Shown: positions 6,928-55,969 of the stretch, one piece after another
Numbering within the stretch: position 1 is the stretch's first letter
Layout of the letters: the number at the start of each line of letters is the position of its first letter
Assembly (NCBI GenBank): GCA_001447805.1
Contig: CP013099.1
Span: 372,001 to 436,000 of the forward strand
Source: Candidatus Tenderia electrophaga
GTDB taxonomy: Bacteria; Pseudomonadota; Gammaproteobacteria; Tenderiales; Tenderiaceae
Length of the DNA stretch: 64,000 nucleotides
Reading direction: 5' to 3'
Notes under the pieces: model-generated
The model's database searches: none
Seen by the model: only the letters and a program-made list of their open reading frames with translations
What the model was told of the DNA's origin: nothing
Translations under genes and position numbers: made by a program

Positions 6928-8439
6928 ATGCCACAGAAATATATCGAAAAAATCCTCCGGGCCCGGGTCTACGACGTGGCTCAGGAGACGCCGCTCGACC
7001 TGATGCCGCGGCTGTCGGCGCGTTTCGACAACCACATCCTGCTCAAGCGCGAAGACCTGCAACCGGTGTTTTCCTTCAAACTGCGCGGCGCCTATAACAA
7101 GATAGTGAATCTGCCGGACTCTGCACGTGCCCAGGGTGTGATCGCCGCGTCGGCCGGCAACCACGCCCAGGGCGTGGCGCTGGCGGCGCAGCGGCTCGGC
7201 ATCAAGGCGGTGATCGTCATGCCCAAGACCACCCCCGCCATCAAGGTGGCGGCGGTGCGCGCCTTCGGCGCCCGCACGGTGCTGCACGGCGACGCCTATG
7301 ACGATGCCTATCATCACGCCGTGGCACTGGCCGAGCAAGAAGGCATGAGCTTTGTTCATCCCTATGACGATCCCGATGTGATCGCCGGCCAGGGCACAGT
7401 CGGCATGGAAATCCTGCGTCAGCACCCCGGCGCGTTGGATGCGGTGTTCGTACCCGTGGGTGGCGGTGGGCTGATCGCCGGGGTGGCGGCCTTTATCAAA
7501 TACGTCTATCCGCAGGTGAAAATAATCGGCGTGGAGCCGGAGGATGCCCCCTCCATGCACCAGGCATTAAAGCATCATCGCCGCGTCATCCTGGATCAGG
7601 TGGGCATCTTCGCCGACGGCGTAGCGGTGCGCCAGGCCGGCAAGGAGCCCTACCGCATCGCGCGCAAGTGCGTCGATGAGGTAATCCTGGTCAGTTCCGA
7701 CGAGATCTGCGCCGCCATCAAGGATATCTTCGACGATACGCGCTCCATCGCCGAACCGGCGGGGGCGTTGGCGGTGGCCGGGGTCAAGAAGTACATTGAG
7801 CGAGAGGGCGCCACCGGCCAGACCCTGGTGGCCATCGACAGCGGCGCCAATATGAATTTCGACCGTCTGCGCCACGTCTCCGAGCGCGCTGAACTGGGCG
7901 AGCGTAACGAGGCCGTATTGGCGGTGACCATTCCGGAAAAGCCCGGCAGCTTCCGTCGTTTCTGCAACACCATCGGCAAGCGTGGCGTGACCGAATTCAA
8001 TTACCGCTACGCCGATGACAGGGACGCCCATGTCTTCGTCGGCGTGCAGTTGGGCGGCAGCGAGGATGCCCGGGAAGAGCTCATCAAGCGTCTCACCGAC
8101 AAGGGCTACCCCGTCATCGACATGAGCGATAACGAGATGGCCAAGCTGCACATCCGCCACATGGTCGGCGGGCGCGCCGAGGTCGGCAACGAGCTGCTGT
8201 ACCGCTTCGAATTCCCGGAGCGCCCCGGCGCCCTGCTGGAGTTTCTCACCCAAATGGGTCAGGGTTGGAACATCAGCTTGTTTCACTACCGCAATCACGG
8301 CGCCGCCTATGGCCGGGTATTGGTGGGCATGCAGGTGCCCGACGGGGGTAAAAACCCGCTGCAGGCCTTTCTCGACGAGCTGGGCTATACCTATGTGGAA
8401 GAGACCGACAACCCGGCCTATAAACTCTTTCTGCGCTGA
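6928..8439 (+). CDS. ilvA: Threonine ammonia-lyase, biosynthetic
   Basis: 503 residues, the length of the long, isoleucine-regulated form. The PLP lysine is K51 in SFKLRGAYNK, and the phosphate-binding glycine loop VGGGGLIAG lies near residue 178. The C-terminal third (about 330-503) holds two ACT-like repeats, each with the PGS/PGA turn (EKPGSFRRF and ERPGALLEF), which bind isoleucine and valine. It deaminates threonine to 2-oxobutanoate, the first step of isoleucine synthesis. Other ilv genes are not nearby. The 3' end probably overlaps the next small gene. Confidence 0.96.
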   Translation: MPQKYIEKILRARVYDVAQETPLDLMPRLSARFDNHILLKREDLQPVFSFKLRGAYNKIVNLPDSARAQGVIAASAGNHAQGVALAAQRLGIKAVIVMPKTTPAIKVAAVRAFGARTVLHGDAYDDAYHHAVALAEQEGMSFVHPYDDPDVIAGQGTVGMEILRQHPGALDAVFVPVGGGGLIAGVAAFIKYVYPQVKIIGVEPEDAPSMHQALKHHRRVILDQVGIFADGVAVRQAGKEPYRIARKCVDEVILVSSDEICAAIKDIFDDTRSIAEPAGALAVAGVKKYIEREGATGQTLVAIDSGANMNFDRLRHVSERAELGERNEAVLAVTIPEKPGSFRRFCNTIGKRGVTEFNYRYADDRDAHVFVGVQLGGSEDAREELIKRLTDKGYPVIDMSDNEMAKLHIRHMVGGRAEVGNELLYRFEFPERPGALLEFLTQMGQGWNISLFHYRNHGAAYGRVLVGMQVPDGGKNPLQAFLDELGYTYVEETDNPAYKLFLR

Positions 8440-8755
8440 TCGTACAAGTCGGGTTCTGGCAGCGGTGGTGTTGCTGCAGGCCGCGACGGCACACGCGGAT
8501 AGCATGCGCTGCGGCAACCTGCTGGTGCTCAGTGGTGATCGTCAGGCGCGCGTGCTGGAGCGTTGCGGCGACCCCGACACCATCGAGAGCTCACAGCGTT
8601 TTCTCCGGCGCGATAGCCCGTTCAGCAAAGACAAGGTGATCCACGAGGTCAACACCGAGCGCTGGTATTACGATTTCGGCGGTGGCTCGCTGCCCAAGGT
8701 GCTGACCTTCGAAAACGGCATTTTGACCCGTATCGACATTGCCGCCGGACACTGA
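8393..8755 (+). CDS. DUF2845 secreted protein
   Basis: The mature part shows the DUF2845 pattern: DSMRCGNLLVLSGD, a LERCGDPD turn and ERWYYDFGGG then LTFENGILTRI. Two cysteines (in RCG and RCG) could form a disulfide. The N-terminus is hydrophobic (VLAAVVLLQAATAHA, cleavage before Asp), so the product is exported. The start is uncertain: an ATG at 8393 overlaps ilvA by 47 bases and gives an unusually long charged leader; GTG 8465 or 8468 would give a very short signal. Function is unknown. Probably translated from the ilvA message. Confidence 0.75.
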   Translation: MWKRPTTRPINSFCADRTSRVLAAVVLLQAATAHADSMRCGNLLVLSGDRQARVLERCGDPDTIESSQRFLRRDSPFSKDKVIHEVNTERWYYDFGGGSLPKVLTFENGILTRIDIAAGH

Positions 8756-8848
8756 CGCCGGGATCGTGTGCCGCTGAATTCGCTACAGTTGCGGCGGCCA
8801 TGTGCCGATCATGTGCGTATCGGTGGGCGCACGAGCAGGCGAACCAGT

Positions 8849-9754
8849 ATGTTGGATTTTTTCAAAAACAAAGACCGCGGAGGCGGCAAGGGTGACGATC
8901 GGGTGTTGGACGGTCGTATTGTTTGTCGGTTAATGCGCCATTTCCCCGTGGGCGCCAAAGTCAGCTATTACCCCGAGTATCGCCAAGAGCTGCTGCTCGA
9001 TACCGTCATCATCGCCTATGCCATTAATGACGAGATTGTGTATTCCAGCAGTGATTTGAATTGCGATGATACCAGTGGCACGTTGACGTTCAGCGATCAG
9101 GGTAAGGCCCATAGCTTCAGGAAAATCACTGCCTTCAGGATCATCGTGCCGGTATTCAATCAGAGCGAGGTCAAGCTTGACTACGCCCGGCGCGAGGCCT
9201 TGCTCAAGACCGGCGGTCTGGTCAAGGGCAATACCATTACCCTGATGGGCGAGCATAAAGGCGGCCAGGTGCCGGTATTGGATACCGGGGTGATTAAACG
9301 CAGCATACTGAAAGAGGGCGTTTACGCCGGCCAGACGGTCGCCTTTCTCGAGGTGGACACCGACTCGCTGATGCTGTCCGATCAACGTGCCCACCTGCGG
9401 CTGCAGACCCATCTTCCCGCCACCATCCAAATCAGTCGCCGCGGCGAGACCGCCCTGATCAACGGCGTGATGGCCGATTTCTCCGATCGCTCCCTGCGTC
9501 TGATCGTAGATGCTGAATTCAGCGACGAGGTCCTGCCCAAAGAAAAAGACCGCGTGGTGGTGTCATTCAACATGCCGGGAAAATCTGAGCACGTCTCCTT
9601 GGTGGGTGATGTATTTCGCGTTGCAGAGCGTGCCCTGGTGGTAATGCTGACCGGCTGTGTGGAAAAAGGCCGGATCGTCGCCCTGGGCCAGATCGAGATA
9701 CTCAAGATCAAGGCGAATCTACTGCAGCACAGCGGCACCAGCCTGTTCAGATAA
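8849..9754 (+). CDS. PilZ-domain protein (YcgR-like, c-di-GMP effector)
   Basis: 301 residues from the ATG giving MLDFFKNKD; an in-frame start further upstream adds a basic tail not typical of the family. The first 110 residues resemble an unnamed N-terminal beta domain. A second half holds the PilZ c-di-GMP signature RAHLR (R180 and R184 of RxxxR) and then D210-F-S212 with Ser at the usual Gly of the DxSxxG motif. YcgR-like proteins act on flagellar or pilus motors or on exopolysaccharide when c-di-GMP is bound. It stands alone. The Ser for Gly change could weaken binding; target is unknown. Confidence 0.75.
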   Translation: MLDFFKNKDRGGGKGDDRVLDGRIVCRLMRHFPVGAKVSYYPEYRQELLLDTVIIAYAINDEIVYSSSDLNCDDTSGTLTFSDQGKAHSFRKITAFRIIVPVFNQSEVKLDYARREALLKTGGLVKGNTITLMGEHKGGQVPVLDTGVIKRSILKEGVYAGQTVAFLEVDTDSLMLSDQRAHLRLQTHLPATIQISRRGETALINGVMADFSDRSLRLIVDAEFSDEVLPKEKDRVVVSFNMPGKSEHVSLVGDVFRVAERALVVMLTGCVEKGRIVALGQIEILKIKANLLQHSGTSLFR

Positions 9755-9757
9755 AGG

Positions 9758-10216
9758 CTATTCCAGCCCGAGAATCAACGTCCACTCCTGTTTGCGCACG
9801 GGCATGATGGAGAGACGGTTGCCGCGCCGTACCAGCGCCATCTCCTCCAGCCCGGGTTGGTGCTTGAGTTCGGTCAAGGTGATGGTGCGCTTGAGCTTAC
9901 GCTTGAACTTGATGTCAACCATGAACCAGCGAGGCGTTTCTTCGGTGCTCTTGGGGTCGTAGTATTTCGATTCCGGATTCCAGGCGGTGAAATCCGGATA
10001 GCCTTCCTTGACCACCTCGGCAATGCCGACGATGCCCGGTTCCTTGCAGTTGGAGTGATAGAAGAATACCTGGTCACCCTTTTTCATTTCGTCGCGCATC
10101 ATGTTGCGCGCCTGATAATTGCGCACACCGTCCCAGTGTTCGGTTTTTTTGGGCATCGCCTTAAGATGATCGATGCCGAAGACGTCGGGCTCGGATTTCA
10201 TCAGCCAGTAATTCAT
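9758..10216 (-). CDS. EVE domain protein
   Basis: 152 residues, one complete EVE domain (PUA/YTH fold). Typical points are the MNYWLMKSEPDVF start, HWDGVRNYQARNMMRDEMKKGD and VFFYHSN, then WFMVDIKF. EVE domains bind modified bases in nucleic acids; the free-standing bacterial version is common beside 5-formyltetrahydrofolate cyclo-ligase and zapA in gammaproteobacteria, as seen here. Role in the cell is not established. Confidence 0.93.
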   Translation of the reverse strand: MNYWLMKSEPDVFGIDHLKAMPKKTEHWDGVRNYQARNMMRDEMKKGDQVFFYHSNCKEPGIVGIAEVVKEGYPDFTAWNPESKYYDPKSTEETPRWFMVDIKFKRKLKRTITLTELKHQPGLEEMALVRRGNRLSIMPVRKQEWTLILGLE

Positions 10217-10236
10217 GTACAGCTCCGCATTTGTTT

Positions 10237-10839
10237 TTAGAGATTGAGCCGGCGCACATTGTAGACCGATTGCTCGGTGACGATGGCGTCCAGGGGGACA
10301 TCCCAGGGTTGTTGTGGCAGTCGCTCGACTTTCTGAAATTCAAAGGCCACCCCCACCAGGCGCGGTTTGCGCCAATGACGGCGTCGATGCAGGAACTCCA
10401 GCGTACGATCATAATAGCCCTTGCCCATGCCCAGGCGATTGCCGTGACTGTCGAAGGCCACCAAGGGCATCAATACCAGATCGAGGCCATAGCTGCGCGT
10501 GGTCTCGTGCAGGGGGGTGACCGGCTCGCCGATGCCGAAGCGATTCGTCACCAATTCGTCCGCTGCGGCATAGGGCGCGAACCAGAGCTGGTTGATGTTG
10601 GGCCTGCCGATGACGGGTAGGTGCCAGCGTTTCTTGCGGCGCCAGGCCAGTTGCATCAGCGGCGTCAAATCCGGTTCGCCGTCATTGCTCAAAAAGCCGG
10701 CAATACGTAGGCTGTAGCAAAACAGATGGGTGTGGGCGACATTGGCGGCGATAGAGCGGCTGGCATCTTGCCGCTCCGCTTCGCTTAACTGCTGACGCCG
10801 AAGGCGAATCTGTTTGCGGATGGTGGCGCGCGAGCTCAC
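10237..10839 (-). CDS. 5-formyltetrahydrofolate cyclo-ligase
   Basis: 200 residues. The family motif MPLVAFDSHGNRLGMGKGYYDRTLE (about 137-161; key GMGKGYYD) and basic N-terminus RKQIRLRRQQL are present. The enzyme makes 5,10-methenyl-THF from 5-formyl-THF with ATP, recycling a folate form that inhibits serine hydroxymethyltransferase and glycine cleavage. The start is GTG. As in E. coli (ygfA), it follows the 6S RNA gene on the same strand, so both may come from one primary transcript. Confidence 0.93.
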   Translation of the reverse strand: MSSRATIRKQIRLRRQQLSEAERQDASRSIAANVAHTHLFCYSLRIAGFLSNDGEPDLTPLMQLAWRRKKRWHLPVIGRPNINQLWFAPYAAADELVTNRFGIGEPVTPLHETTRSYGLDLVLMPLVAFDSHGNRLGMGKGYYDRTLEFLHRRRHWRKPRLVGVAFEFQKVERLPQQPWDVPLDAIVTEQSVYNVRRLNL

Positions 10840-10880
10840 GGTCGGTGGCGATGGCTTAGTCTGCTGCAGGAAAAATAAAT

Positions 10881-11065
10881 GACATCCTCCGCCTGTGCCG
10901 TTGGGGCATTAGACCTTGAACCAAAGGTTCAAGTGGGAACTTGCGCGGATCATTAGGCTTTCCGTCGTGCGGACATGCACACAAATCCAACAGCCCCGTT
11001 CCCATGGGTTTGCATTAAGGCTCAAAGGTTACTTAGCCCGCTTACAAACACCGCAGAGGATGCCA
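10881..11065 (-). ncRNA. ssrS: 6S RNA
   Basis: About 185 bases on the minus strand, upstream of the 5-FCL gene. The ends form the long closing stem of 6S RNA (GGCATCCTCTGC near 11064 with GCGGAGGATGTC near 10881), flanking a large central bulge. The 3' half has the hairpin CTTGAACC-TTT-GGTTCAAG near 10915-10932, also found in E. coli 6S RNA, and GCCTTAATG / GAAAGCCTAATG segments. A -10 box TATAAT lies at 11077-11072, about 7 bases before the predicted 5' end. 6S RNA mimics an open promoter and sequesters sigma-70 RNA polymerase in stationary phase. Exact ends are approximate. Confidence 0.88.
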
Positions 11066-11071
11066 TCACCG

Positions 11072-11077
11072 ATTATA
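11072..11077 (-). promoter_or_regulatory. -10 box of 6S RNA promoter
   Basis: Perfect TATAAT on the minus strand, 7 or so bases before the 5' strand of the 6S closing stem. I see no good -35 hexamer at 16-18 bases. Confidence 0.6.
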
Positions 11078-11197
11078 GTAAAGCAAAACCGTTAGCAGCT
11101 CAAAGATTGTTCCGCCATGGAATAATTGAGGAAAACATCGACGCTGCCGGAATCTGGGATAAAATAACCCGTTTCGATCAAATGGAGTGAAGCGCCA

Positions 11198-11416
11198 GTG
11201 CGTAAATGGCCATCGCGCGGCAGGTTGTGGCTGGACGTTGTTATGGTATTGGCGCTGGTGGTACTGGCGGTGTTGCTGTACCGGCTGACACCGGCGCAGA
11301 CCCAGTTGGCGCCCATATTCGACGATTTGGAATTGCTCGCCGCCGCGCCGGCACCGGCGTTTTATCGTGATCTCGAGTTTTATCGATGGTTGGAGCGCCG
11401 CGATGCTCAGGATTAG
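11198..11416 (+). CDS. Small single-span membrane protein
   Basis: 72 residues, GTG start with GGAGTG ahead. One membrane helix (about 12-28, LDVVMVLALVVLAVLLY) follows a basic N-terminus, giving an N-in topology, and the tail ends DLEFYRWLERRD. In related genomes a short protein with an anchor and a DLEFYxWL ending precedes DUF3106 proteins, often behind an ECF sigma gene, so this may be an anti-sigma-like piece; here no sigma gene is present. It overlaps the DUF3106 gene by 14 bases. Function unknown. Confidence 0.6.
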   Translation: MRKWPSRGRLWLDVVMVLALVVLAVLLYRLTPAQTQLAPIFDDLELLAAAPAPAFYRDLEFYRWLERRDAQD

Positions 11417-11816
11417 TGCGCTGAGCGCGCTGTTGCTGGTCGCCATGAGCGTGGCGGCACAAGCGCCCTTACCCTGGGAACGACTGAGCCCGGCGCAGCG
11501 GCAATTGTTGCAGCCCCATGCCGAGCGCTGGTCGTCTCTGGCCCCGGCCCAGCAGCTGCGCTTGTCTCGGGGGGCGGCACAATGGCTGGCCTTGACCCCC
11601 GCACAGCGCCACCGCGCGCAACGCCGTTTTCACGATTGGCAGTCCTTGCCCGCCGAGCGCAAACACCTCATCCGCCGGCAGTTCGAACGCTTCCAGCAGC
11701 TCCCCACCCGGGAGCGGGCCCGGCTGCTGGAGCGCGCCGCGTGGTTTCAAGGTCTGTCTGAGGCGCGGCAAAAGGCGTTGCGCCGGCAATGGCGGCAGCG
11801 TGATGACGCACCGTAA
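11403..11816 (+). CDS. DUF3106 secreted protein
   Basis: 137 residues from the ATG that gives a signal peptide (LSALLLVAMSVAAQA). The mature protein is Arg/Gln-rich and built of repeats of the type W-x2-L-x3-Q-R-x2-L, with repeating LSPAQRQ, LAPAQQ, LTPAQR, LPAERK and LPTRER units, which is the DUF3106 pattern. Members are periplasmic proteins of unknown role. Translationally coupled to the small membrane protein upstream. Confidence 0.8.
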   Translation: MLRISALSALLLVAMSVAAQAPLPWERLSPAQRQLLQPHAERWSSLAPAQQLRLSRGAAQWLALTPAQRHRAQRRFHDWQSLPAERKHLIRRQFERFQQLPTRERARLLERAAWFQGLSEARQKALRRQWRQRDDAP

Positions 11817-12028
11817 TTTTCTAGCCCGGATTTTTCACCCTTGTTCGTAACGAGACGGTTCAAGGGTGCGGCATGGCGGATTTTATTCGACCGAGGCGCG
11901 CGCCGGGCATACTTGCCAGTCTGTCGAGCACGCCGACCGCGCAAAAGCCAGTCAGGAGGTGCCATTGAGCCGTGGCAGTAGAAGGGTGGTGGGAAGGAAA
12001 TCCGGCTGGCGAACTCGGGGGCGGTGAT

Positions 12029-12343
12029 TTAGATCTCGATCTGGCGCGCGCTGGAGAGCGCCGCCTCGATCTTGCTTTGTAGGTTCTTTACCCGGGCGCT
12101 GAGGGTGTTATCGATCTTGTCGCCCTGGCCCTGTTTCTGCATCAGTTCGTGGGTGATATTGAGGGCCGCCATGACGGCGATGTTGTCGCTGCCGGTGGTG
12201 CGGCCGCGGTCGCGGATCTCGCACATTTTCTCGTCCAGATAGGCAGCGCTTTGCAGCAGGGCCTCGCGTTCCTCCGGCGGGCAGGCGACGCGATATTCCT
12301 TGCCCAGGATAGTGAGCACCACCGGCTTGGGCTCATTGGCCAT
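12029..12343 (-). CDS. zapA: Cell division protein ZapA
   Basis: 104 residues. N-terminal PKPVVLTILGKEYRVACPPEE is the ZapA head, followed by the long helix (LQSAAYLDEKMCEIRDRG, then IAVMAALNITHELM) and a C-terminal coiled coil. ZapA tetramers crosslink FtsZ filaments in the Z-ring. The upstream ZapB-like gene overlaps it by 11 bases, so both are translated together. Downstream on the same strand are 6S RNA and 5-FCL, the arrangement known from E. coli, but two opposite-strand genes have come between. Confidence 0.93.
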   Translation of the reverse strand: MANEPKPVVLTILGKEYRVACPPEEREALLQSAAYLDEKMCEIRDRGRTTGSDNIAVMAALNITHELMQKQGQGDKIDNTLSARVKNLQSKIEAALSSARQIEI

Positions 12344-12569
12344 ATTCTTGTTCCATATTCTTCAAGCGCATGATCATGGACTCAACCCGGGAGCGCGCCG
12401 CCTCGTTCTTTTTCATCAGGCTGGCGCGTTCCGACATCAGACTGCCGTGCTGCTCGCGCAGGGCCTGATTCTCGCTTTTCAGTTGATGGCATAGCTGGAT
12501 CAGCTCATCGACCCGGAATTCGAGGGACTTGAGATCCTGCTCATGACTGCGTGATTGATCCTGACTCAT
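12333..12569 (-). CDS. ZapB-like coiled-coil protein (TIGR02449 type)
   Basis: 78 residues, almost entirely one coiled coil with heptads (LEFRVDELIQLCHQLKSEN, then a Gln-Ala-Leu-Arg-Glu segment). This is the TIGR02449 family that regularly precedes zapA in gammaproteobacteria and resembles ZapB. By place and shape it should act with ZapA at the Z-ring; direct proof for this family is not known to me. Confidence 0.85.
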   Translation of the reverse strand: MSQDQSRSHEQDLKSLEFRVDELIQLCHQLKSENQALREQHGSLMSERASLMKKNEAARSRVESMIMRLKNMEQEYGQ

Positions 12570-12659
12570 AGTCCGCCAATATAGTGGGGTGCGGCCTTAT
12601 GGTCAACGGCTGGGGAATGTTACTATTGCGACAATTTCCCGCGTAACGAGGACCCCGCC

Positions 12660-13277
12660 GTGACTGTTGTACCCCCCGCCTATGATGAAGTGGCCGCGTT
12701 GTTGTCGGCCTACGGCGATGCCTTCGGTGCCGCTGAATGTCACGGCATGCTCTGCGCCATGGCCAGTTGTCAGCCCGGGCTGGACGGTGACAGCTGGGCG
12801 CGGCGCATGTTGGGCGGCGAGGTGGAGGCCGTGCTTGAAGGTGAAATGTCCGGTGGCGCTGAAGTCGACAGCGCCGACCGGGAGGCGCTCAGCGCCTTGT
12901 ACGACGACACGGTCAGGCAACTGGCCGATCCCGAGCTCGGCTTTCAACTGTTGTTGCCGGATGACGAGGTCTCGCTGCAACAGCGCACCGCCGCCCTGGC
13001 CAGCTGGTGTCAGGGCTATTTGTACGGCCTGAGTTTAGGCGGCATCAAGGACTTCCAGGGTTTTTCCGAACCGGTACAGGAGTTCGCCCGAGACCTGGCC
13101 GAGATCGCCCGTCTCAGCCACGACGAAGAGGACGATGCCGCCGCCGGCGAGAGCGCCTTTCTCGAAGTTTCCGAATATGTGCGCATGGGCGTGCTGATGT
13201 TGCGTGACGAGTTGCTCAACGAAGGCGGCGAGGGCCCCGAATCCCCCGGCGCCCCCGAAGACGTGGTGTTGCATTGA
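12660..13277 (+). CDS. UPF0149 family protein (YgfB-like)
   Basis: 205 residues with a GTG start and AACGAGGA ahead. The UPF0149 motifs are AAECHGMLCAMA near residue 20 and WCQGYLYGLSLGG near 120, followed by an acidic stretch. The family lies next to pepP and the ubi genes in E. coli (ygfB-pepP-ubiH-ubiI), exactly as here. In Pseudomonas aeruginosa YgfB has been linked to control of the ampDh3 amidase and beta-lactam resistance. The stop overlaps the pepP start by one base (TGATG). Confidence 0.92.
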   Translation: MTVVPPAYDEVAALLSAYGDAFGAAECHGMLCAMASCQPGLDGDSWARRMLGGEVEAVLEGEMSGGAEVDSADREALSALYDDTVRQLADPELGFQLLLPDDEVSLQQRTAALASWCQGYLYGLSLGGIKDFQGFSEPVQEFARDLAEIARLSHDEEDDAAAGESAFLEVSEYVRMGVLMLRDELLNEGGEGPESPGAPEDVVLH

Positions 13278-14614
13278 TGCGCGCCGGTGAGTTCAGTAAA
13301 CGCCGCCAGCGCCTGCTGGCCATGCTCGACGCGGACAGCATCGCCATTCTGCCCGCCGCGCCGGCGCGCACCCGCAGTCGTGATGTGGAACACCCGTATC
13401 GTCCCGACAGCGACTTCTATTATCTCAGCGGTTTCCCCGAGCCCGAGGCGATTGCGGTGCTGGTGCCCGGCCGCCGCCAGGGTCAGTTCATTCTGTTCTG
13501 CCGTGAACGCGATCCCGAGATGGAGACCTGGAACGGCCGCCGCGCCGGGCTGGCCGGGGCGGTGGAGCGCTACGGTGCCGACGACGCCTTTCCCATTGCC
13601 GACGTGGACGACATCCTGCCGGGCTTGATGGAGAATAAAGAACGGGTCTATTACTCCATGGGCACGCACCCCGAGTTGGATCAACGCATGATTGAATGGC
13701 TCAACCGGGTGCGCCAGAAGGCCCGCGCCGGCATCCACGCGCCGGGCGAGTTCATCTCCCTGGATCACCTGCTGCACGAAATGCGCCTGATCAAGAGTGC
13801 GGCCGAGATCCAGGCCATGAAAAAGGCGGCCAAGGTCTCCGCCGCCGCCCACTGCCGCGCTATGCAGGCATGCAGGCCGGGCATGATGGAGTACCAGCTC
13901 GAGGCCGAGCTGTTGCATCACTTCATGGTCAACGGCTGTCGCCACCCCGCCTATCCCGCCATCGTCGGCGGCGGTGAGAACGGCTGCATCCTGCATTACA
14001 CCGAAAATGAATCCGAACTCAATGACGGTGACCTGCTGCTCATCGACGCCGGCGGCGAATACGACAACTACGCCGCCGACATCACCCGCACCTTCCCGGT
14101 CAACGGCACATTCACGGCGGCGCAAAAGGCCCTCTACGAAGTCGTGCTCAAGGCGCAATACGCCGCCATTGAACAAGTGCAACCGGGCAAGCACTGGAAC
14201 GCACCGCACCTGGCGGCGGTGAAGGCCCTGACCAAAGGGCTGATCAAGCTCGGCATCCTCAAGGGCACGCCGGCCAAGCTGGTCAAGGAAGAGGCCTACC
14301 GCCGCTTCTACATGCACCGCACCGGCCACTGGCTGGGTATGGATGTGCACGACGTGGGCGACTACAAGGTGGACGGCCAATGGCGCGAACTGGAGCCGGG
14401 CATGGTGCTGACCGTCGAACCCGGCCTGTATATTCCCGCCGGCAGCAAAGGGGTGGCGAAAAAATGGTGGGGCATGGGTATCCGCATCGAAGACGATGTG
14501 CGCGTGACCCGCACCGGCCATGAGGTGCTGAGCTCGGGCGTTCCGAAAGAGGTGGACGCGATCGAGGCGTTGATGGCCGGTGAAACGCAGCGCCGCAGGC
14601 GACCGGTTGCATGA
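13277..14614 (+). CDS. pepP: Xaa-Pro aminopeptidase
   Basis: 445 residues from the ATG overlapping the UPF0149 stop. The C-terminal pita-bread domain shows all metal ligands of M24 peptidases: two Asp in LIDAGGEYDNYAADITRTF, His in HRTGHWLGMDVHDVG, and Glu residues in TVEPGLY and GIRIEDDV. It removes N-terminal residues before proline and uses two manganese ions. The N-terminal creatinase-like domain begins RRQRLLAML. It sits in the conserved pepP-ubiH-ubiI run and overlaps ubiH (ATGA). Confidence 0.96.
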   Translation: MRAGEFSKRRQRLLAMLDADSIAILPAAPARTRSRDVEHPYRPDSDFYYLSGFPEPEAIAVLVPGRRQGQFILFCRERDPEMETWNGRRAGLAGAVERYGADDAFPIADVDDILPGLMENKERVYYSMGTHPELDQRMIEWLNRVRQKARAGIHAPGEFISLDHLLHEMRLIKSAAEIQAMKKAAKVSAAAHCRAMQACRPGMMEYQLEAELLHHFMVNGCRHPAYPAIVGGGENGCILHYTENESELNDGDLLLIDAGGEYDNYAADITRTFPVNGTFTAAQKALYEVVLKAQYAAIEQVQPGKHWNAPHLAAVKALTKGLIKLGILKGTPAKLVKEEAYRRFYMHRTGHWLGMDVHDVGDYKVDGQWRELEPGMVLTVEPGLYIPAGSKGVAKKWWGMGIRIEDDVRVTRTGHEVLSSGVPKEVDAIEALMAGETQRRRRPVA

Positions 14615-38835: not shown

Positions 38836-39462
38836 TCAGCCTGTTTGAAACAAGCGGGCGGGTTCGATAAAGATGCCGGAGGCGACTCGATTGCGGCGTT
38901 GCTCCAACAGTTCAACATACAGCCCCTGCCGCTCTGTGGGGGTGACGCGCAGACGCAGACTGTCGATGCCGGGCTGCTCAACGGCCCGTTCCGGGCGGAA
39001 CAGCAGGCCACAACTGTTGCCCGCCAGGGCCGCGCCGCGCAAGTCCTGCATGGCATGACGGTCGGCGTGATTGACCCAGCTGAGGACCGTGGCGCAGGTG
39101 CCGGCACGTAAGGCATGTTCCACGGCCCACAGACCGTTGCTGGTGGCATGGGGGTGAATCATCAGCACCTGGCCAAGGTCGATGCCCTCGGTTTGAAGTT
39201 CGGTCCTGGTGGGGGCGTTGGGCGGCGCAATCATGGCGAGCCAGCGCTTGGCCTGGCTCAGACGCGCCAGCGCCGGCCAAACCAGCGCCAGCGCCGGACG
39301 GCTGTCGTGGCTGCAGAAGATTTCAGTAATTCCACCCACCGGCCAGCCGCCCTGGGGCAGCATCACGTCTAACGCGGGATAACCGCTGCTGATGGCCGCG
39401 GACATGGGGCGGGCAAGGCCGCCGGGCTGGGAAAAGTCCAGACTGAGATTGACCGGGGGCAT
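38836..39462 (-). CDS. SulA/ImuA-family SOS protein
   Basis: 208 residues. Contains LPQGGWPVGGITEI, where RecA-like proteins have their P-loop, then RWLAMIAPPNAPTRTELQTEGIDLGQVLMIHP and ATVLSWVNHADRHAMQDLRGAAL, shared by ImuA and the Pseudomonas-type SulA. In Pseudomonas sulA follows lexA; ImuA would stand with imuB and dnaE2, which are absent here, so a SulA-type inhibitor of division is favoured. Start overlaps the lexA stop by one base, so it is under the same SOS boxes. Confidence 0.75.
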   Translation of the reverse strand: MPPVNLSLDFSQPGGLARPMSAAISSGYPALDVMLPQGGWPVGGITEIFCSHDSRPALALVWPALARLSQAKRWLAMIAPPNAPTRTELQTEGIDLGQVLMIHPHATSNGLWAVEHALRAGTCATVLSWVNHADRHAMQDLRGAALAGNSCGLLFRPERAVEQPGIDSLRLRVTPTERQGLYVELLEQRRNRVASGIFIEPARLFQTG

Positions 39463-40061
39463 TATTCGGCCCCCTGGCGAATTACGCCGACGGCGATACC
39501 TTCGATAGCCAGCGACTGCTTGCGCAGATCGACACGAATCGGCTCGAAATCGGGATTTTCGGCCACCAGGGTGACGATGTTGCCGCGCTGTTTGAAGCGC
39601 TTGACGGTAACGTCGTCATCAAGCCTGGCGACAACGATCTGGCCGTTATGCGCTGTGGGGTTCTGGTGCACGGCCAGCAGGTCGCCGTCGCGGATGCCCA
39701 CATCGCGCATGCTCATGCCGTGGACGCGCAGCAGGTAGTCGGCTTGCGGATGAAACATCTGCGGATCGATCTTGAGATGGTCTTCTATATGTTCCTGTGC
39801 CAGCAGGGGTTCACCGGCCGCCACCCGGCCGACCAGCGGCAGGCCGTTATCGGCCAGCAGGCGGATGCCGCGCGATGCGCCGGACATGAGCTCGATCACG
39901 CCCTTGCGCGCCAAGGCCTTGAGGTGGTCTTCGGCGGCATTGGCGGAACGAAACCCCAGCGCCTCGGCAATTTCGGCGCGCGTCGGCGGCATGCCGGTTT
40001 CGGCAATGAAGTCGCGAATCAGGTCGAGGATTTGCTGTTGTCTGGCGGTGAGCTTTTCCAT
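39462..40061 (-). CDS. lexA: SOS repressor LexA
   Basis: 199 residues from [10 protein letters not shown]; an upstream ATG (40085) is rejected because it would put an SOS box inside the gene. N-terminal winged helix with [24 protein letters not shown]-type motif ([11 protein letters not shown]), autocleavage site Ala-Gly in VAAGEPLLA, and catalytic Ser in HGMSMRD with Lys in [15 protein letters not shown]. It represses DNA damage genes until RecA filaments trigger cleavage. Confidence 0.95.
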
Positions 40062-40073
40062 CTTGGCGCATTC

Positions 40074-40109
40074 CTGAGTATCCATACAGTGTGCTGTAAG
40101 TATACACAG
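40074..40109 (-). promoter_or_regulatory. Two LexA (SOS) boxes before lexA
   Basis: On the minus strand CTGTGTATACTTACAG (40109-40094) and CTGTATGGATACTCAG (40089-40074), both CTG-N10-CAG. A pair of boxes gives tight autorepression, as for E. coli lexA. Confidence 0.88.
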
Positions 40110-40157: not shown

Positions 40158-41996
40158 CTAGTTCAAAAAACCGCGGGTGGCGGGGTCGATAACCGCCTTT
40201 TTCGGGGCTGTGGGGGCGACGGGTGCTTCGACGTCGTGCGGCATAATGGTGGTGGGCTGCAACTGCAGAATCTCGCCGTCCATGGAAAGATAAATATCCG
40301 ATTCGATCAACATATCGCTTTCTGTAACCTCAGCGGAGGATCGTTGGGGCTCAGCGCCGCTGGTTGGCGTGTCGGCAATCATCGGGGCGGAGCGCGGGGT
40401 AGCGGCAGGCCGTGTGATTGGCGGCGTCACGCGGGTTTGCGGGGTGACGGCGGTTGGGTTTACGGGAGGCTGGGATGCTGCCAGCTGAGTCAGTTTATCC
40501 AGCGAAAAAGGGCTGCTCGCAAACAGCGCGCCCAAGCCGATGACGGTGGCGCCGATCAGGGTGTTGCGCAGCCCATGGCGTTGACGCGCGGGGGTGGCGC
40601 GCGCTGCATTGGTGTCCTGTTTGTGCGGCGCCGCGTTGCCGGGGGGCTTCGCCTTTATGGCGTGGGGCTTGGTTTCGGACACCACCGCCGGCTGGGCCAA
40701 GACCTGCGTCACCCGGGTTTTTTCCACCTGGTACACGGCGGCGCTGTCGGCAAAACTGTTATCCGATACTTCGTCCACCGTCGAACCCCAGTAGTCAGCC
40801 AGTGAGCAATACGTATTGCCCTGTTTGGTTTGGCTTACAGGCGCATCATCCGTTTCCTGGCTGGGCTCATTCGCCGGCGCACTGTCGGCCGTATCGCCTG
40901 TGGTCGCTTGCGCGGTTTCTTCCGCGGCAGGTGTGTTCATCTCGCGCAGTGCCAGATGCGGAATGGCACTGGCCAGGCCGCCGTCGAGTATAAAGGCGTC
41001 AAAGCCGTGCTGATTGAGTAGGAACGCCGCTACCGAACTGCGGCTGCCGTCATCGCAATAGACGATGTATTTGCGGTTGTGTTTCAGGCCTTTGAGCTTG
41101 AGGCGCAATACCGGCATGGGGATGTTGACGCTGCCAGGGATGCTCATGGCCTTGAACTCGTCCTGCAGGCGGATATCGATAAACAATCCGCCGGTGGCGG
41201 CCATGGCCTGGGCCTCATCCCAGTTGATGGCGCTGAGCAGGGGCTCGGCCAGCAGTTCGGCGAAGTCCTGTTTTGACAGGCGCATCAAGGTGCCGTCTTG
41301 CTGCATGGTGACGGTGGCGGCGCGTGCCGAGGTGGTGAGCAGGGATTCTTCGCCAAAGGCGTCGCCGGCACCCAGCTCGGCCAGTTTGATGGGACGTGCG
41401 CCGGCATCGGGCGTGCGCGACACGGTGGCGCGGCCTTCTTTGATGACGTAGTAAAAGTCGTCGTCAGCGTCCTGCGTTACGACGCGTTGGCCGGCGCGGA
41501 CGTGTACTTCGTTCATGCGCTCTAGCAGGGTGTTGATTTGGGATTCGGAAAAACGCAACAGGCCGCGCGATTGCAGCAGGCGGTTCATCCAGGCGTGATC
41601 CTGGCCGGTGTCCATTTCATTGACCACATAGGCGTTGGGGTTGGTCCAGTTGAGGAACAGGTCGAGCATGTCGGCATCAAAGCTGATCAATACCGATTCT
41701 TCCAGGGCCCGGGCGGATACCTGGCCGGGCAGATGGCGACCGATCGGCTGATAGGCCTCCTGGCTGCCGCCTTCGATAATGGTTTTGTGATTGGCGCCGC
41801 GCAGCTCAACCTTGCCTTTAAGCAGGTAAAAGACCTGCTTGTCCATGTCGTCCTGATTGAATACCGGGGTACCGGGGGAAAGTTGGATGCTGATCGACGT
41901 GCGCAGCAATTCCTGAGCGTCCGCATCGCTTAATTTGCCCAGCGGGGCAAATTTTCGCACCTCAGTGCTGCTGATCATTTGGGCGGCTTGCTTCAT
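40158..41996 (-). CDS. Double cNMP-binding / rhodanese / membrane-anchored protein
   Basis: 612 residues in a rare order. cNMP-binding fold 1 is at about 20-120 (degenerate phosphate cassette), fold 2 at about 145-250 with FGEESLL...RAATVTM (Glu and R225 as in nucleotide-binding cassettes), rhodanese domain at about 255-350 with C314 in YCDDGSRSSVA and D/E-rich surroundings, then a 120-residue disordered Ala/Pro/Thr linker, a single membrane helix at about 479-497, and a Pro/Thr-rich tail ending RGFLN, probably outside. A rhodanese carries sulfane sulfur as Cys persulfide. Two sensor folds in front suggest that cyclic nucleotide or redox controls sulfur transfer or a protein contact. No operon partner. 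I know of no characterised protein with this layout. Confidence 0.85.
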   Translation of the reverse strand: MKQAAQMISSTEVRKFAPLGKLSDADAQELLRTSISIQLSPGTPVFNQDDMDKQVFYLLKGKVELRGANHKTIIEGGSQEAYQPIGRHLPGQVSARALEESVLISFDADMLDLFLNWTNPNAYVVNEMDTGQDHAWMNRLLQSRGLLRFSESQINTLLERMNEVHVRAGQRVVTQDADDDFYYVIKEGRATVSRTPDAGARPIKLAELGAGDAFGEESLLTTSARAATVTMQQDGTLMRLSKQDFAELLAEPLLSAINWDEAQAMAATGGLFIDIRLQDEFKAMSIPGSVNIPMPVLRLKLKGLKHNRKYIVYCDDGSRSSVAAFLLNQHGFDAFILDGGLASAIPHLALREMNTPAAEETAQATTGDTADSAPANEPSQETDDAPVSQTKQGNTYCSLADYWGSTVDEVSDNSFADSAAVYQVEKTRVTQVLAQPAVVSETKPHAIKAKPPGNAAPHKQDTNAARATPARQRHGLRNTLIGATVIGLGALFASSPFSLDKLTQLAASQPPVNPTAVTPQTRVTPPITRPAATPRSAPMIADTPTSGAEPQRSSAEVTESDMLIESDIYLSMDGEILQLQPTTIMPHDVEAPVAPTAPKKAVIDPATRGFLN

Positions 41997-43297: not shown

Positions 43298-43396
43298 GCG
43301 CCGACCGCCGGCAATAGTGTTGATTAAATTAAAGTAATCCCCCACGCTGCAGGATAATAAAGGCATGACAGGGCAATCGGCGGCGTGAGACACGGA

Positions 43397-43915
43397 ATGG
43401 CAATCGAAAAAAACCCCTTTGATGGTCTGGAACTGCTGGGTTCCGGCACCACCTTCAGCGCAAAGATCGGCGATATGTTGGAACGGGCCGATATGTTCCG
43501 GGACATGACGCGCCAGGAGGTGGATATCTTCGCCGGGTATGTGCAGGCCTATAACGCCCCGGTGGGCGCCGAAGTCTTGCACGAAGGCATGCGCGAGAGT
43601 TACATGTTCATCGTCGCTCAGGGCCGGCTGGATATTTTGAAACAGACCGCCGATTACGGTGAAAGCAGGAAGATCGCCACTGTCAGGGCGGGCAAGACCA
43701 TCGGCGAAATGTCGCTGCTCGACGGTCTGCCCCATTCCGCCACCGCCCGGGTGGTGGAGCCCGCCGTGCTGCTGCTGCTGACCAAGAGCCGCTTCGAGCA
43801 GGTCGTCGCCGAACAGCCCGAAGTGGCCTTGAAGATGATCCGCAAAATGGCCACGCTGATGAGCCTACGTCTGCGCCAGACCAGCGGTGTGCTGATCGAT
43901 TACCTCAAGAGCTGA
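43397..43915 (+). CDS. Cyclic nucleotide-binding fold protein
   Basis: 172 residues from MAIEKNPF (a GTG four codons earlier is possible; neither has a clear RBS). The beta-barrel fold spans about 30-150, with the cassette IGEMSLLDGLPHSATARV; the Arg that holds the cyclic phosphate in Crp is replaced (HSAT), so it may bind another ligand or none. No helix-turn-helix follows, so it is not a Crp-type regulator. C-terminal helix ends YLKS. Role unknown. Confidence 0.8.
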   Translation: MAIEKNPFDGLELLGSGTTFSAKIGDMLERADMFRDMTRQEVDIFAGYVQAYNAPVGAEVLHEGMRESYMFIVAQGRLDILKQTADYGESRKIATVRAGKTIGEMSLLDGLPHSATARVVEPAVLLLLTKSRFEQVVAEQPEVALKMIRKMATLMSLRLRQTSGVLIDYLKS

Positions 43916-44178: not shown

Positions 44179-44991
44179 ATGAATCAGATGCAGCGCCTGC
44201 TTGAGGTGATGGCCGCCCTGCGTGATCCGCAGCGTGGCTGTCCGTGGGACCGGCAGCAGACCTATCGCACCATCCTGCCCTACACCCTGGAAGAGGTCTA
44301 CGAAGTGGCCGAGGCCATCGAACAGAACGACATGGCCGCCCTGCGCGAAGAGCTGGGTGATCTGCTGTTCCAGATCGTCTTCTACGCCCAGATGGCCAAA
44401 GAGGCGGGCGAGTTCGACTTTGCCGACGTCGCCCAAGAGATCGGCGACAAACTGGTGCAGCGTCACCCCCACGTCTTCGCCGATGCGGATATTGCCGACG
44501 CCGAGGCCCAAACCAGTGCATGGGAGCAACACAAAGCGCGCGAACGCCACGCCAAGGCCGCCGCTGAACAGCGTGACCCGAGTGTGCTGGACAACGTCCC
44601 GCAGGCCCTGCCGGGGCTAATGCGCGCCATGAAACTGCAGCGCCGCGCCGCCCGAGTCGGCTTCGACTGGCCCGATGTGGAGCCGGTGCTGGCCAAGATC
44701 GAAGAGGAGCTGGCCGAAGTGCGCGAGGTGATGGCCAACGGCGCCGATCCGGACAAACTGGCGCACGAGGTCGGCGACCTGATCTTCGCCTGTGTCAATC
44801 TCGGCCGCCATGCCGGCGTCGAGCCGGAAACGGCGGTGCGCGGCGTCAACCGCCGCTTCGAAAACCGCTTTCGCCGCGTTGAGCAACTGGCGCGGCAGCA
44901 GAACCAAACCCTGGCGCGGCTGTCTCTGGAAGAGATGGAAACATTGTGGGACCAGGCCAAAGCCGAGGAGGCGACAGCGCGTGAGAACTAA
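44179..44991 (+). CDS. mazG: Nucleoside triphosphate pyrophosphohydrolase MazG
   Basis: 270 residues with two tandem MazG folds. The first has CPWDRQQTYRTILPYTLEEVYEVAEAI and EELGDLLFQIVF; the second has EEELAEVREVM and HEVGDLIFACVNLGRH. Both keep the ExxE/ExxD magnesium residues. It hydrolyses NTPs and dNTPs to monophosphate, and in E. coli lowers (p)ppGpp. It overlaps the cytochrome gene by 11 bases. Confidence 0.95.
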   Translation: MNQMQRLLEVMAALRDPQRGCPWDRQQTYRTILPYTLEEVYEVAEAIEQNDMAALREELGDLLFQIVFYAQMAKEAGEFDFADVAQEIGDKLVQRHPHVFADADIADAEAQTSAWEQHKARERHAKAAAEQRDPSVLDNVPQALPGLMRAMKLQRRAARVGFDWPDVEPVLAKIEEELAEVREVMANGADPDKLAHEVGDLIFACVNLGRHAGVEPETAVRGVNRRFENRFRRVEQLARQQNQTLARLSLEEMETLWDQAKAEEATAREN

Positions 44992-46282
44992 GATATTGAA
45001 ACTGTTATGGCTGACGCTGCTGTTGCCCACGCTGGTTTGGGCCCAGGATGACACACTGCACATCGTCTACTCCGGCAATATCGACGGTGAACTGGAGCCC
45101 TGCGGCTGCAGCATCGAAGGCAATTCCGGCGGTATCCTGCGGCACTCCACGACCTTGAAAAAGCTGCGCGACGAACATCCGGGCCTGTTCGCCCTGTCCG
45201 GCGGCGGCATGGTGGTCAGCATGGTGCCGCAGGACAAGCTCACCGGCGAATACATCCTCAAGGGGTTTGCGACCTTGGACTACGATGCCGTCGCGCTGCA
45301 GTGGAACGATCTGGCCTACGGGGTGGAATTTGTGCGCGACCGCGGCCTGCCCTGGGTGGCCAGCAATTGGTCCGGCGACGCATTTGCCGACGCCAAACAG
45401 ATCAAGCGCGACGGACATACACTGTTCTTCTTCGCCTGGATGGATCCCGCCCAATCGCCCCAAGCCGCCATGCAGGGTGAACACAAACCGGTCAGTGATG
45501 ACTTGGACGGCCTCGCGGCCCGACTGCAACAGGCACAGCAGCGAGGCCTTACCGTGCTCTCCACCACGTTAACGATGGAGCAGGCCCGGGCCCTGCCGCT
45601 GCAATATGTCGATATCCTGCTAATCCGCGCCGCCTACGAAGAATTCGGCCAGCCGCACATGCGCGACGGTACGCTGGTGCTGCAGCCGGGCTCCCGCGGC
45701 ATGCGCCTGGGGCAGCTGACCCTCAGCCTGAACGAACAGGGACGCATCGCGGACTTCCAGCACCGGGTCATCTCCATGCCGCCGGCGGTGGCAGACGATC
45801 CGGCCTTGCTGGCCTGGTACGAGGAATACAATGCCACGGTCAAGGCGGCCTATCTCGAACGGGTCAAACTGCGCAAGGCCATGAGCTCGGGCGAAAGCCC
45901 CTTCGTTGGCGCAGAGCGCTGCCAAAACTGCCATCAGCAGACCCATGACATCTGGCGCGAGAGCCTGCACAGCGACGCCTTTTACAAGCTCGAACAGGTC
46001 AACAAGGCCTTCGATCCCGCCTGCATCAAATGCCATACCGTTGGCTTCGAACAGGCGGGCGGATTTATCGACACCGACGCCACGCCGCACCTGATGAATG
46101 TGCAGTGTGAGAATTGCCACGGCGCCGGGCGTGCCCATGCCGAGTCGGCGGGTGTCGAACCGTTGGCCAATCAAGATTGGCAACCCGAGCGCATGTGCGC
46201 CCAGTGCCATGTGCAAAAACACAGTCCGGCGTTTGATTTCGACAGCTATTGGCCGCGCATCAAGCACCCCGTCGTCAAATAG
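44981..46282 (+). CDS. Tetrahaem cytochrome c with nucleotidase-like N-domain
   Basis: 433 residues from a GTG with GAGGAGG ahead, overlapping mazG. Signal peptide ends at VWA (20-21). Residues 25-265 resemble the UshA-type metallophosphatase fold (HIVYSGNIDGELEPCGC at 27-43), but the catalytic NDxHG is changed to SGNIDG and a CGC motif takes its place, so hydrolysis is doubtful. The C-terminus has four haem c motifs: CQNCH 314-318, CIKCH 348-352, CENCH 376-380 and CAQCH 406-410, of the cytochrome c554 type. Electron-transfer role in the periplasm is likely; donor and acceptor are unknown, though sulfur or nitrogen compounds are candidates. Coupling to mazG is unexplained. Confidence 0.88.
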   Translation: MRTKILKLLWLTLLLPTLVWAQDDTLHIVYSGNIDGELEPCGCSIEGNSGGILRHSTTLKKLRDEHPGLFALSGGGMVVSMVPQDKLTGEYILKGFATLDYDAVALQWNDLAYGVEFVRDRGLPWVASNWSGDAFADAKQIKRDGHTLFFFAWMDPAQSPQAAMQGEHKPVSDDLDGLAARLQQAQQRGLTVLSTTLTMEQARALPLQYVDILLIRAAYEEFGQPHMRDGTLVLQPGSRGMRLGQLTLSLNEQGRIADFQHRVISMPPAVADDPALLAWYEEYNATVKAAYLERVKLRKAMSSGESPFVGAERCQNCHQQTHDIWRESLHSDAFYKLEQVNKAFDPACIKCHTVGFEQAGGFIDTDATPHLMNVQCENCHGAGRAHAESAGVEPLANQDWQPERMCAQCHVQKHSPAFDFDSYWPRIKHPVVK

Positions 46283-54880: not shown

Positions 54881-55969
54881 ATGCAGGATGTGCTGACAAG
54901 CAAGCGCGTATTGCTGGTGGACGATATGTCCACCGTGCGTAAGTCCCTGCGCCGCATGTTGTCCGGTTTCGGCATGGAGGTGCTCGAGGCGACGGATGGC
55001 GAAGGTGCCTTGCTGCTGGTGGCCGATGAGCATGTGGACCTGTTTCTGCTCGATATCCACCTGGCCGGCATGGACGGTATGGAGCTGTGCCGCCGCCTGC
55101 GCCAGATGGAGCGCTTCGAGTACGCACCGGTGTTGTTCGTGACCTCGCTGCCCGAGGCGGAGATCGGCCGGCATGCCTTCGATGTGGGCGGCGATGATAT
55201 TATCGCCAAGCCGGTGTCGCCAGCGGTGCTGCAGGCGCGCCTGCGTACCCATCTACAGCGCCGTGAAGATGCACGCCAACTGCACTTGTTGCGCAACAAC
55301 CTGGATCGTTACGTGGATGCCCGCACCCGGCGCATGGCGGAGCAACAGGCGCGTAACGGTCAGGTGTTGAAACCGGAACGGCGCGAAGTTTGCGTGCTGT
55401 TCACCGACCTGCGCAGTTTTACTCAGCTGTCACAAGAGATGGAGCCGGAGAGCTTGTTCGCTATCCTGAGCGAGCATCTCAATGCCCAGGTGAAGTGTGT
55501 CTACCGCTGTGGCGGTTATATCGACAAGTTCAGCGGCGACGGCGTCATGGCCGTGTTCGACGGTCCCGGGATGGCACTCAACAGCTGTCTCTGCGCCCTC
55601 AAAATCATCGAGCAGGCCTGTCTCAAGGCCAGCGGCGACGCCGCCGCCCTGTACCAGGTTGGCATCGGTATCCATTGCGGCGAGGTCATGATCGGCAATA
55701 TAGGCATGGAAAAGCAGCTCGATTACACCGTTATCGGCCCCACGGTCAATCTGGCGGCGCGCCTGTGCGGCCATGCCCGCGCCCTGTCAGTGGTGGTTTC
55801 CGAGGCGCTGCGCCGGCAGGTGCAGGACGAGCCGCAGCTGCGCTTTTCCGAGCCGCTGGAATTGCAGATCAAAGGCGTCAAGGCGCCGGTGCTGGCTTAC
55901 CAGCTAACGGCGGGGGAGAAGCGCAGCAAGATCTGCCCGATCGACGCGCTTGATGCCCTGCGGCGCTGA
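54881..55969 (+). CDS. Receiver-controlled class III adenylate cyclase
   Basis: 362 residues. Receiver at 7-125 with D58 as phosphorylation site and K110; a linker helix; class III cyclase at about 165-350 with metal Asps D176 (FTDLRSF) and D220 (DKFSGDG), substrate Lys K216 and GPTVNLAARL for the ring. It makes cAMP (less likely cGMP) in response to a kinase. The kinase is not adjacent. With the cNMP-binding proteins at 40.2-42.0 and 43.4-43.9 kb it hints at a cyclic nucleotide circuit. Confidence 0.92.
   Translation: MQDVLTSKRVLLVDDMSTVRKSLRRMLSGFGMEVLEATDGEGALLLVADEHVDLFLLDIHLAGMDGMELCRRLRQMERFEYAPVLFVTSLPEAEIGRHAFDVGGDDIIAKPVSPAVLQARLRTHLQRREDARQLHLLRNNLDRYVDARTRRMAEQQARNGQVLKPERREVCVLFTDLRSFTQLSQEMEPESLFAILSEHLNAQVKCVYRCGGYIDKFSGDGVMAVFDGPGMALNSCLCALKIIEQACLKASGDAAALYQVGIGIHCGEVMIGNIGMEKQLDYTVIGPTVNLAARLCGHARALSVVVSEALRRQVQDEPQLRFSEPLELQIKGVKAPVLAYQLTAGEKRSKICPIDALDALRR

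Follow-up and report, generated by a model that had tools for sequence, protein, structure and literature searches.

The minus strand of the window (the whole 64,000-nucleotide stretch of DNA analyzed here) contains at positions 40158–41996 an ORF of 612 aa, which starts with an ATG at 41996, immediately preceded on the 5' side by GGAG, and ends with a TAG at 40158. The sequence-only reading had assigned to its product two cNMP-binding domains (cNBD1 and cNBD2), a rhodanese domain with Cys314, a linker, a transmembrane helix and a tail, and this order was borne out by our Pfam searches, the alignment and the orthologues, the helix being probable. Pfam analysis detected the cNMP_binding family in two stretches (E-value 1.7e-23, best match at residues 164–250) and the Rhodanese family at residues 260–342 (E-value 5e-16; PF00581 score of 59.4 bits against a cut-off of 22.2, with a CxxxxR loop), so that the tandem cNBDs and the rhodanese are collinear across ~345 aa. 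Full-length orthologues with 45–68% identity are present in the genus and the family, which, together with the strong domain E-values, argues that the architecture is not a product of chance. A DNA-binding HTH domain was not matched by Pfam at E-values up to 1, and on this ground we rejected the identification as a transcription regulator of the CRP/FNR type. AlphaFold models of the full-length protein and of residues 1–353, built from two-sequence alignments only, have a mean pLDDT of 28.8 and 33.4, respectively, values too low for the models to be of use.

In a whole-genome search, in which the cNBDs were scored separately, cNBD1 (41661–41885, minus strand) obtained 27.9 bits, barely above the curated cut-off of 27.5, and cNBD2 (41247–41507, minus strand) 62.3 bits. 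cNBD1 appears degenerate: it lacks the Glu residue of the phosphate-binding cassette (PBC) and has Gly at position 91, a position occupied by Arg in 87 of 113 relatives. cNBD2 possesses a canonical PBC, FGEESLLTTSARAATV, with Glu216 (codon 41349–41351) and Arg225 (codon 41322–41324), and its sequence is PKA-like (R-A-A-T-V); thus, the claim that the second cNBD retains the Glu and Arg and the first does not proved correct. The rhodanese domain (40971–41219, minus strand) contains the predicted catalytic Cys314 (codon 41055–41057) at the start of a CDDGSR loop that ends with Arg319.

The C-terminal 267 residues are of low complexity. They include a short, conserved, cytoplasmic linker motif SLADYWG (40785–40805, minus strand), found in most orthologues in the alignment, and a probable single membrane helix (residues 479–497; 40506–40562, minus strand), assigned by hydropathy and alignment and preceded by basic residues, as for an N-in orientation. 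In the 612-aa protein by itself the helix is borderline (best 19-residue mean hydropathy of 1.57), and eight relatives have a stronger one at the matching position (1.65–2.54); we consider the protein very probably anchored in the membrane. The Pro-rich tail terminates in the conserved motif DPATRGF (40167–40187, minus strand), probably periplasmic, and seven of nine orthologues have DPATRG at their C-terminus. The mean identity of the nine orthologues to the window protein is 62–68% in the cNBD-cNBD-rhodanese module versus 18–24% in the linker, helix and tail, and it rises again to 46% at the extreme C-terminus. DPATRGF is encoded only once in the genome, which rules it out as a genome-wide tag.

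Genomic neighborhood

Downstream of the cNBD-rhodanese gene lie two conserved neighbors, identified by Pfam and synteny: lexA (39462–40085, minus strand) and a SulA/RecA-like gene of the sulA/imuA type (38836–39462, minus strand). In all seven other loci of the membrane-anchored (window-type) proteins with a sufficiently long contig, the gene is located directly upstream of lexA and the SulA/RecA-like gene on the same strand; this count leaves out one orthologue, whose contig stops short of the lexA position. A motif search revealed a perfect LexA box between the cNBD-rhodanese gene and lexA (40094–40109, plus strand), and CTGT-N8-ACAG is present at the equivalent place in 7/7 orthologous loci examined. 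Upstream of the cNBD-rhodanese gene we found no LexA box, either in the window or in the orthologous loci. As the sole box at this locus is the downstream one that precedes lexA, we rejected SOS control of the cNBD-rhodanese gene and regard the pairing with lexA as positional.

The opposite side of the window-type locus is also conserved and comprises a single-cNBD gene, DUF2835, mazG and a gene for a UshA-like/cytochrome c554 protein. The stand-alone single-cNBD protein (43385–43915, plus strand) has the PBC GEMSLLDGLPHSATA, with His replacing the usual Arg, and the UshA-like PCGC protein, which has a multihaem domain of the cytochrome c554 type, is encoded at 44867–46282 (plus strand). At the level of this locus, the neighbors of the gene for the 612-aa protein yield no enzyme or sulfur acceptor. 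Family-wide, the conserved neighbors are lexA, amtB/glnK-aroE, cyclases/HD-GYP, a pyruvate dehydrogenase cluster and a glutamate-dehydrogenase-like gene, and no sulfur-pathway genes were recognized in the conserved neighborhoods of module genes, and on this ground we rejected a sulfur-oxidation operon. About 15 members consisting of little more than the module are found in a conserved amtB/glnK - module - aroE - ksgA setting, with genes named by sequence (loci L047, L048, L158–L167, L170 and others), and this neighborhood provides a hint of a link to nitrogen status.

Spread and architectures of the family

The cNBD-cNBD-rhodanese module turned out to be widely found in a search of 37 relatives. 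Using a family profile (A1) built from 27 members, we detected it in 170 of 369 sampled genomes of Gammaproteobacteria (46%; 124 of 272 genera) and in 21 of 398 genomes of Pseudomonadota; it was absent from the plasmids searched. The search for taxonomic spread that the sequence-only reading had called for thus shows a common combination rather than a unique one. Bearers of the module as separate proteins include Pseudomonas, a genus that we assigned through the PrrF RNA (present in 59/59 genomes searched). The usual form is a stand-alone protein of ~350 aa, and we found no named Pfam or NCBIfam family that spans the combination of cNBD and rhodanese.

The fetched loci provided 113 full modules (112 once one duplicate locus was dropped), which we sorted into classes according to their length and the pattern at the C-terminus. 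In 65 of them the protein is minimal and consists of little besides the module, nine are of the window type, and 24 have long extensions, coiled-coil or other, some with a helix and some lacking one. Fourteen modules have a C-terminal pattern that, where scanned with Pfam, corresponds to a coiled coil and one helix followed by an FGE-sulfatase domain. This order matches that of the 612-aa protein: a sensor module, one helix and an extracytoplasmic domain, the FGE-sulfatase domain being apparently extracytoplasmic. The giant proteins L035:7951–12348, L199:7529–13174 and L203:6690–10658 comprise the module, a long coiled coil, one helix and a C-terminal FGE-sulfatase domain. Long coiled-coil members are often encoded by paired adjacent genes, as in four loci (L034:4995–7340 and 7408–9702; L211:7594–10140 and 10680–13376; L212:7261–9819 and 10246–12747; L217:4790–7198 and 7831–11667), which suggests that they form heteromers.

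The genome that encodes the 612-aa protein contains two paralogues, a minimal protein of 366 aa and a coiled-coil protein of 857 aa. The latter (L030:7661–10234, equivalent to C1:965660–968233) has Ser in place of the rhodanese Cys, followed by a coiled coil and a helix, and its gene directly follows a probable pyruvate dehydrogenase cluster (aceE-aceF-lpd, named by sequence). Phylogenetically, the window-type proteins are monophyletic (9/9 in one clade, support 1.0) and group with coiled-coil proteins including Cys-less members, with a support of 0.98 for the wider group.

Fusions of CNB domains to rhodaneses were listed in 2007 in one table row of the CNB survey by Kannan et al. (PMC2246266), whose "Other_bacterial" group resembles the 612-aa protein in combining a CNB domain and a rhodanese homology domain with a canonical PBC. 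The parts of that survey available to us describe neither a tandem arrangement nor a membrane branch, and give no spread, function or connection to cyclases. Apart from this table line, the literature with both CNB and rhodanese terms, in the excerpts retrieved, treats no such fusion, and we found no biochemistry of the family in the literature searched. The suggestion that the architecture had not been described therefore does not hold, given the 2007 listing, the occurrence in 46% of the sampled gammaproteobacterial genomes and the two paralogues in the same genome; what is new here is the membrane-anchored variant inside a very common, essentially unstudied family.

Predicted catalytic residues and candidate ligand

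The equivalent of Cys314 is kept in 103/113 modules, including 64/65 minimal and 9/9 window-type proteins, within a six-residue CxxxxR loop; in one window-type orthologue (L054) the Arg of this loop is missing. Losses of the Cys concern mostly coiled-coil members, in which the cNMP cassette is still kept, and in the sister coiled-coil group some relatives are Cys-less and have SDDN loops, which implies that the fold of the rhodanese can be retained in the absence of catalysis. Since Cys314 is nearly invariant among minimal and window-type proteins and is lost mostly in coiled-coil members, catalysis appears to matter in this branch and to be dispensable elsewhere, and from the conserved residues we think it rather likely that the rhodanese is catalytically active. 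The same pattern bears on a somewhat unlikely alternative, according to which the protein is a cAMP-responsive membrane scaffold, in which the rhodanese would be a protein-binding or structural element with incidental chemistry and the signal would be passed by conformational change or clustering. That the ligand cassette outlasts the Cys (the equivalents of Glu216 and Arg225 are each kept in 111/113 modules), that Cys-less members, the sister clade among them, are mostly coiled-coil proteins, and that coiled-coil and transmembrane extensions recur in the family would all agree with such a scaffold; the retention of Cys314 in all window-type and all but one of the minimal proteins, however, points to chemistry in this branch.

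A Thr residue after the PBC Arg is typical of PKG. The 612-aa protein has Ala at this position and most relatives have Asn, which leans toward cAMP as the ligand. Among the 369 gammaproteobacterial genomes, a class I or class III cyclase is encoded in 167 of the 170 with the module versus 87 of the 199 without it (odds ratio 72, Fisher test 7e-35, a figure inflated by the confounding effects of genome size and shared ancestry). Considered separately, class III cyclases (PF00211) are present in 154/170 versus 82/199 genomes, and class I adenylate cyclases (PF01295) in 98/170 versus 10/199. Class I cyclases are adenylate-specific. A survey of 1.55 Mb of sequence surrounding 108 loci placed five minimal modules less than 1 kb from a class III cyclase gene, three of them convergent with it within 60 bp, and showed just two additional cyclase genes elsewhere in the loci. 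One further minimal module has a class I adenylate cyclase gene at a distance of 102 bp. A CHASE2 protein (cyclase or kinase) is encoded nearby in ten loci and a GAF-HD-GYP protein in eleven, and one cyclase-adjacent module locus also contains a class II cAMP phosphodiesterase-like gene. These loci are partly related, so the independent events are fewer than the loci counted. The genome of the 612-aa protein has a single class I cyclase and four of class III; one of these four, fused to a response regulator, is encoded in the window (54881–55969, plus strand) and is a possible source of the ligand. On the basis of the residues and of the cyclase co-occurrence, we predict with good confidence that cAMP is the most likely ligand. 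It is improbable that, as in several CRP/FNR relatives, the pocket of cNBD2 is without a ligand or accommodates one that is not a cyclic nucleotide: CNB domains are known to bind varied ligands, as the available parts of the 2007 survey indicate (PMC2246266), but the canonical PBC, whose Glu and Arg are retained in nearly all modules, and the near-complete co-occurrence with cyclases argue against it.

Very improbable, despite the intact rhodanese loop, an SQR-like gene elsewhere in the window and one named relative from Chromatiaceae, is an inner-membrane persulfide carrier for sulfur oxidation or trafficking, the role suggested by the sequence-only reading, in which the cNBDs would have a secondary regulatory part, as the module is present in nearly half of the sampled class, Pseudomonas included, and its conserved neighbors include no recognized sulfur-pathway genes. 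Accordingly, of the initial proposal of a cyclic-nucleotide-responsive rhodanese in a sulfur oxidizer, the responsive and probably membrane-anchored rhodanese stands as a prediction from the conserved residues and the cyclase co-occurrence, and the special tie to sulfur oxidation is not supported.

Known systems and a proposed mechanism

CbpA from Pseudomonas aeruginosa reportedly consists of a degenerate N-terminal CNB domain followed by a functional cAMP-binding one (Endoh and Engel, 2009), an arrangement that recalls the degenerate first and canonical second domain of the 612-aa protein. Unlike the 612-aa protein, CbpA is a two-CNB protein of ~285 aa with no further enzyme domain. A probable CbpA orthologue beside the tandem prrF genes (L119:6511–7368, 285 aa) lacks a rhodanese, and its match to the family scores just 13 bits, so we excluded CbpA as a characterized member. 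In the mycobacterial acetyltransferase Pat, a cAMP-binding CNB domain controls an enzyme in the same chain. Pat (NF058543) is therefore the best working model for the 612-aa protein, which likewise joins CNB and enzyme in one chain, although Pat is a soluble acetyltransferase with a single CNB domain and only the CNB part matches NF058543. The regulatory domains of PKA and PKG also have tandem CNB domains, and in solved structures of apicomplexan PKG our family profile aligns collinearly over two tandem CNB domains, but the 612-aa protein lacks a kinase domain. Single-domain rhodaneses of the GlpE/PspE type share PF00581 and the six-residue CxxxxR loop; in the 612-aa protein, by contrast, the chain with the rhodanese also carries two CNB domains and a membrane helix. 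Two further identities were rejected. The PADLOC match to a Pycsar effector covers the cNBD only (residues 141–250), with no TIR domain; the nearest cyclase gene within the window is 12.9 kb away from the ORF. The match to Family 2B encapsulin is restricted to residues 130–251 and scores 36.8 bits, where the cut-off is 400, and an HK97-fold shell was not found.

The reading that we prefer, and to which we give about even chances, is that of a membrane-tethered, cAMP-binding rhodanese, in which the ligand on cNBD2 controls the adjacent rhodanese or a partner. cAMP would occupy cNBD2, and cNBD1, having lost its ligand cassette, could serve as a structural or dimerization partner. Because the rhodanese directly follows cNBD2, we propose that ligand binding may alter the exposure or activity of the persulfide-forming Cys314, which could in turn change the transfer of sulfur to, or the docking of, an inner-membrane partner. 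Allosteric coupling between cNBD2 and the rhodanese is, judged from the sequence, a balanced proposition. The likeliest sites for docking of a partner would be the SLADYWG linker motif and the periplasmic DPATRGF motif, a role that is speculative for both.

According to a recent review, the global action of cAMP is in most bacteria exerted through CRP only (PMC11139211). We tentatively raise the possibility, which we hold to be less probable than the mechanism outlined above, that the module proteins form a major class of cAMP effectors distinct from CRP in Gammaproteobacteria, acting as cAMP-gated sulfurtransferases whose membrane branches relay the signal. The branches represented by the 612-aa protein and by the FGE-sulfatase proteins would then carry a cytosolic cAMP signal to the membrane and the periplasm, by persulfide chemistry or by conformation. 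The presence of the module in ~46% of the sampled gammaproteobacterial genomes, nearly always together with a cyclase, makes these proteins testable candidates for cAMP effectors other than CRP, and the joining of a cAMP cassette to a rhodanese may connect cAMP directly with persulfide chemistry.
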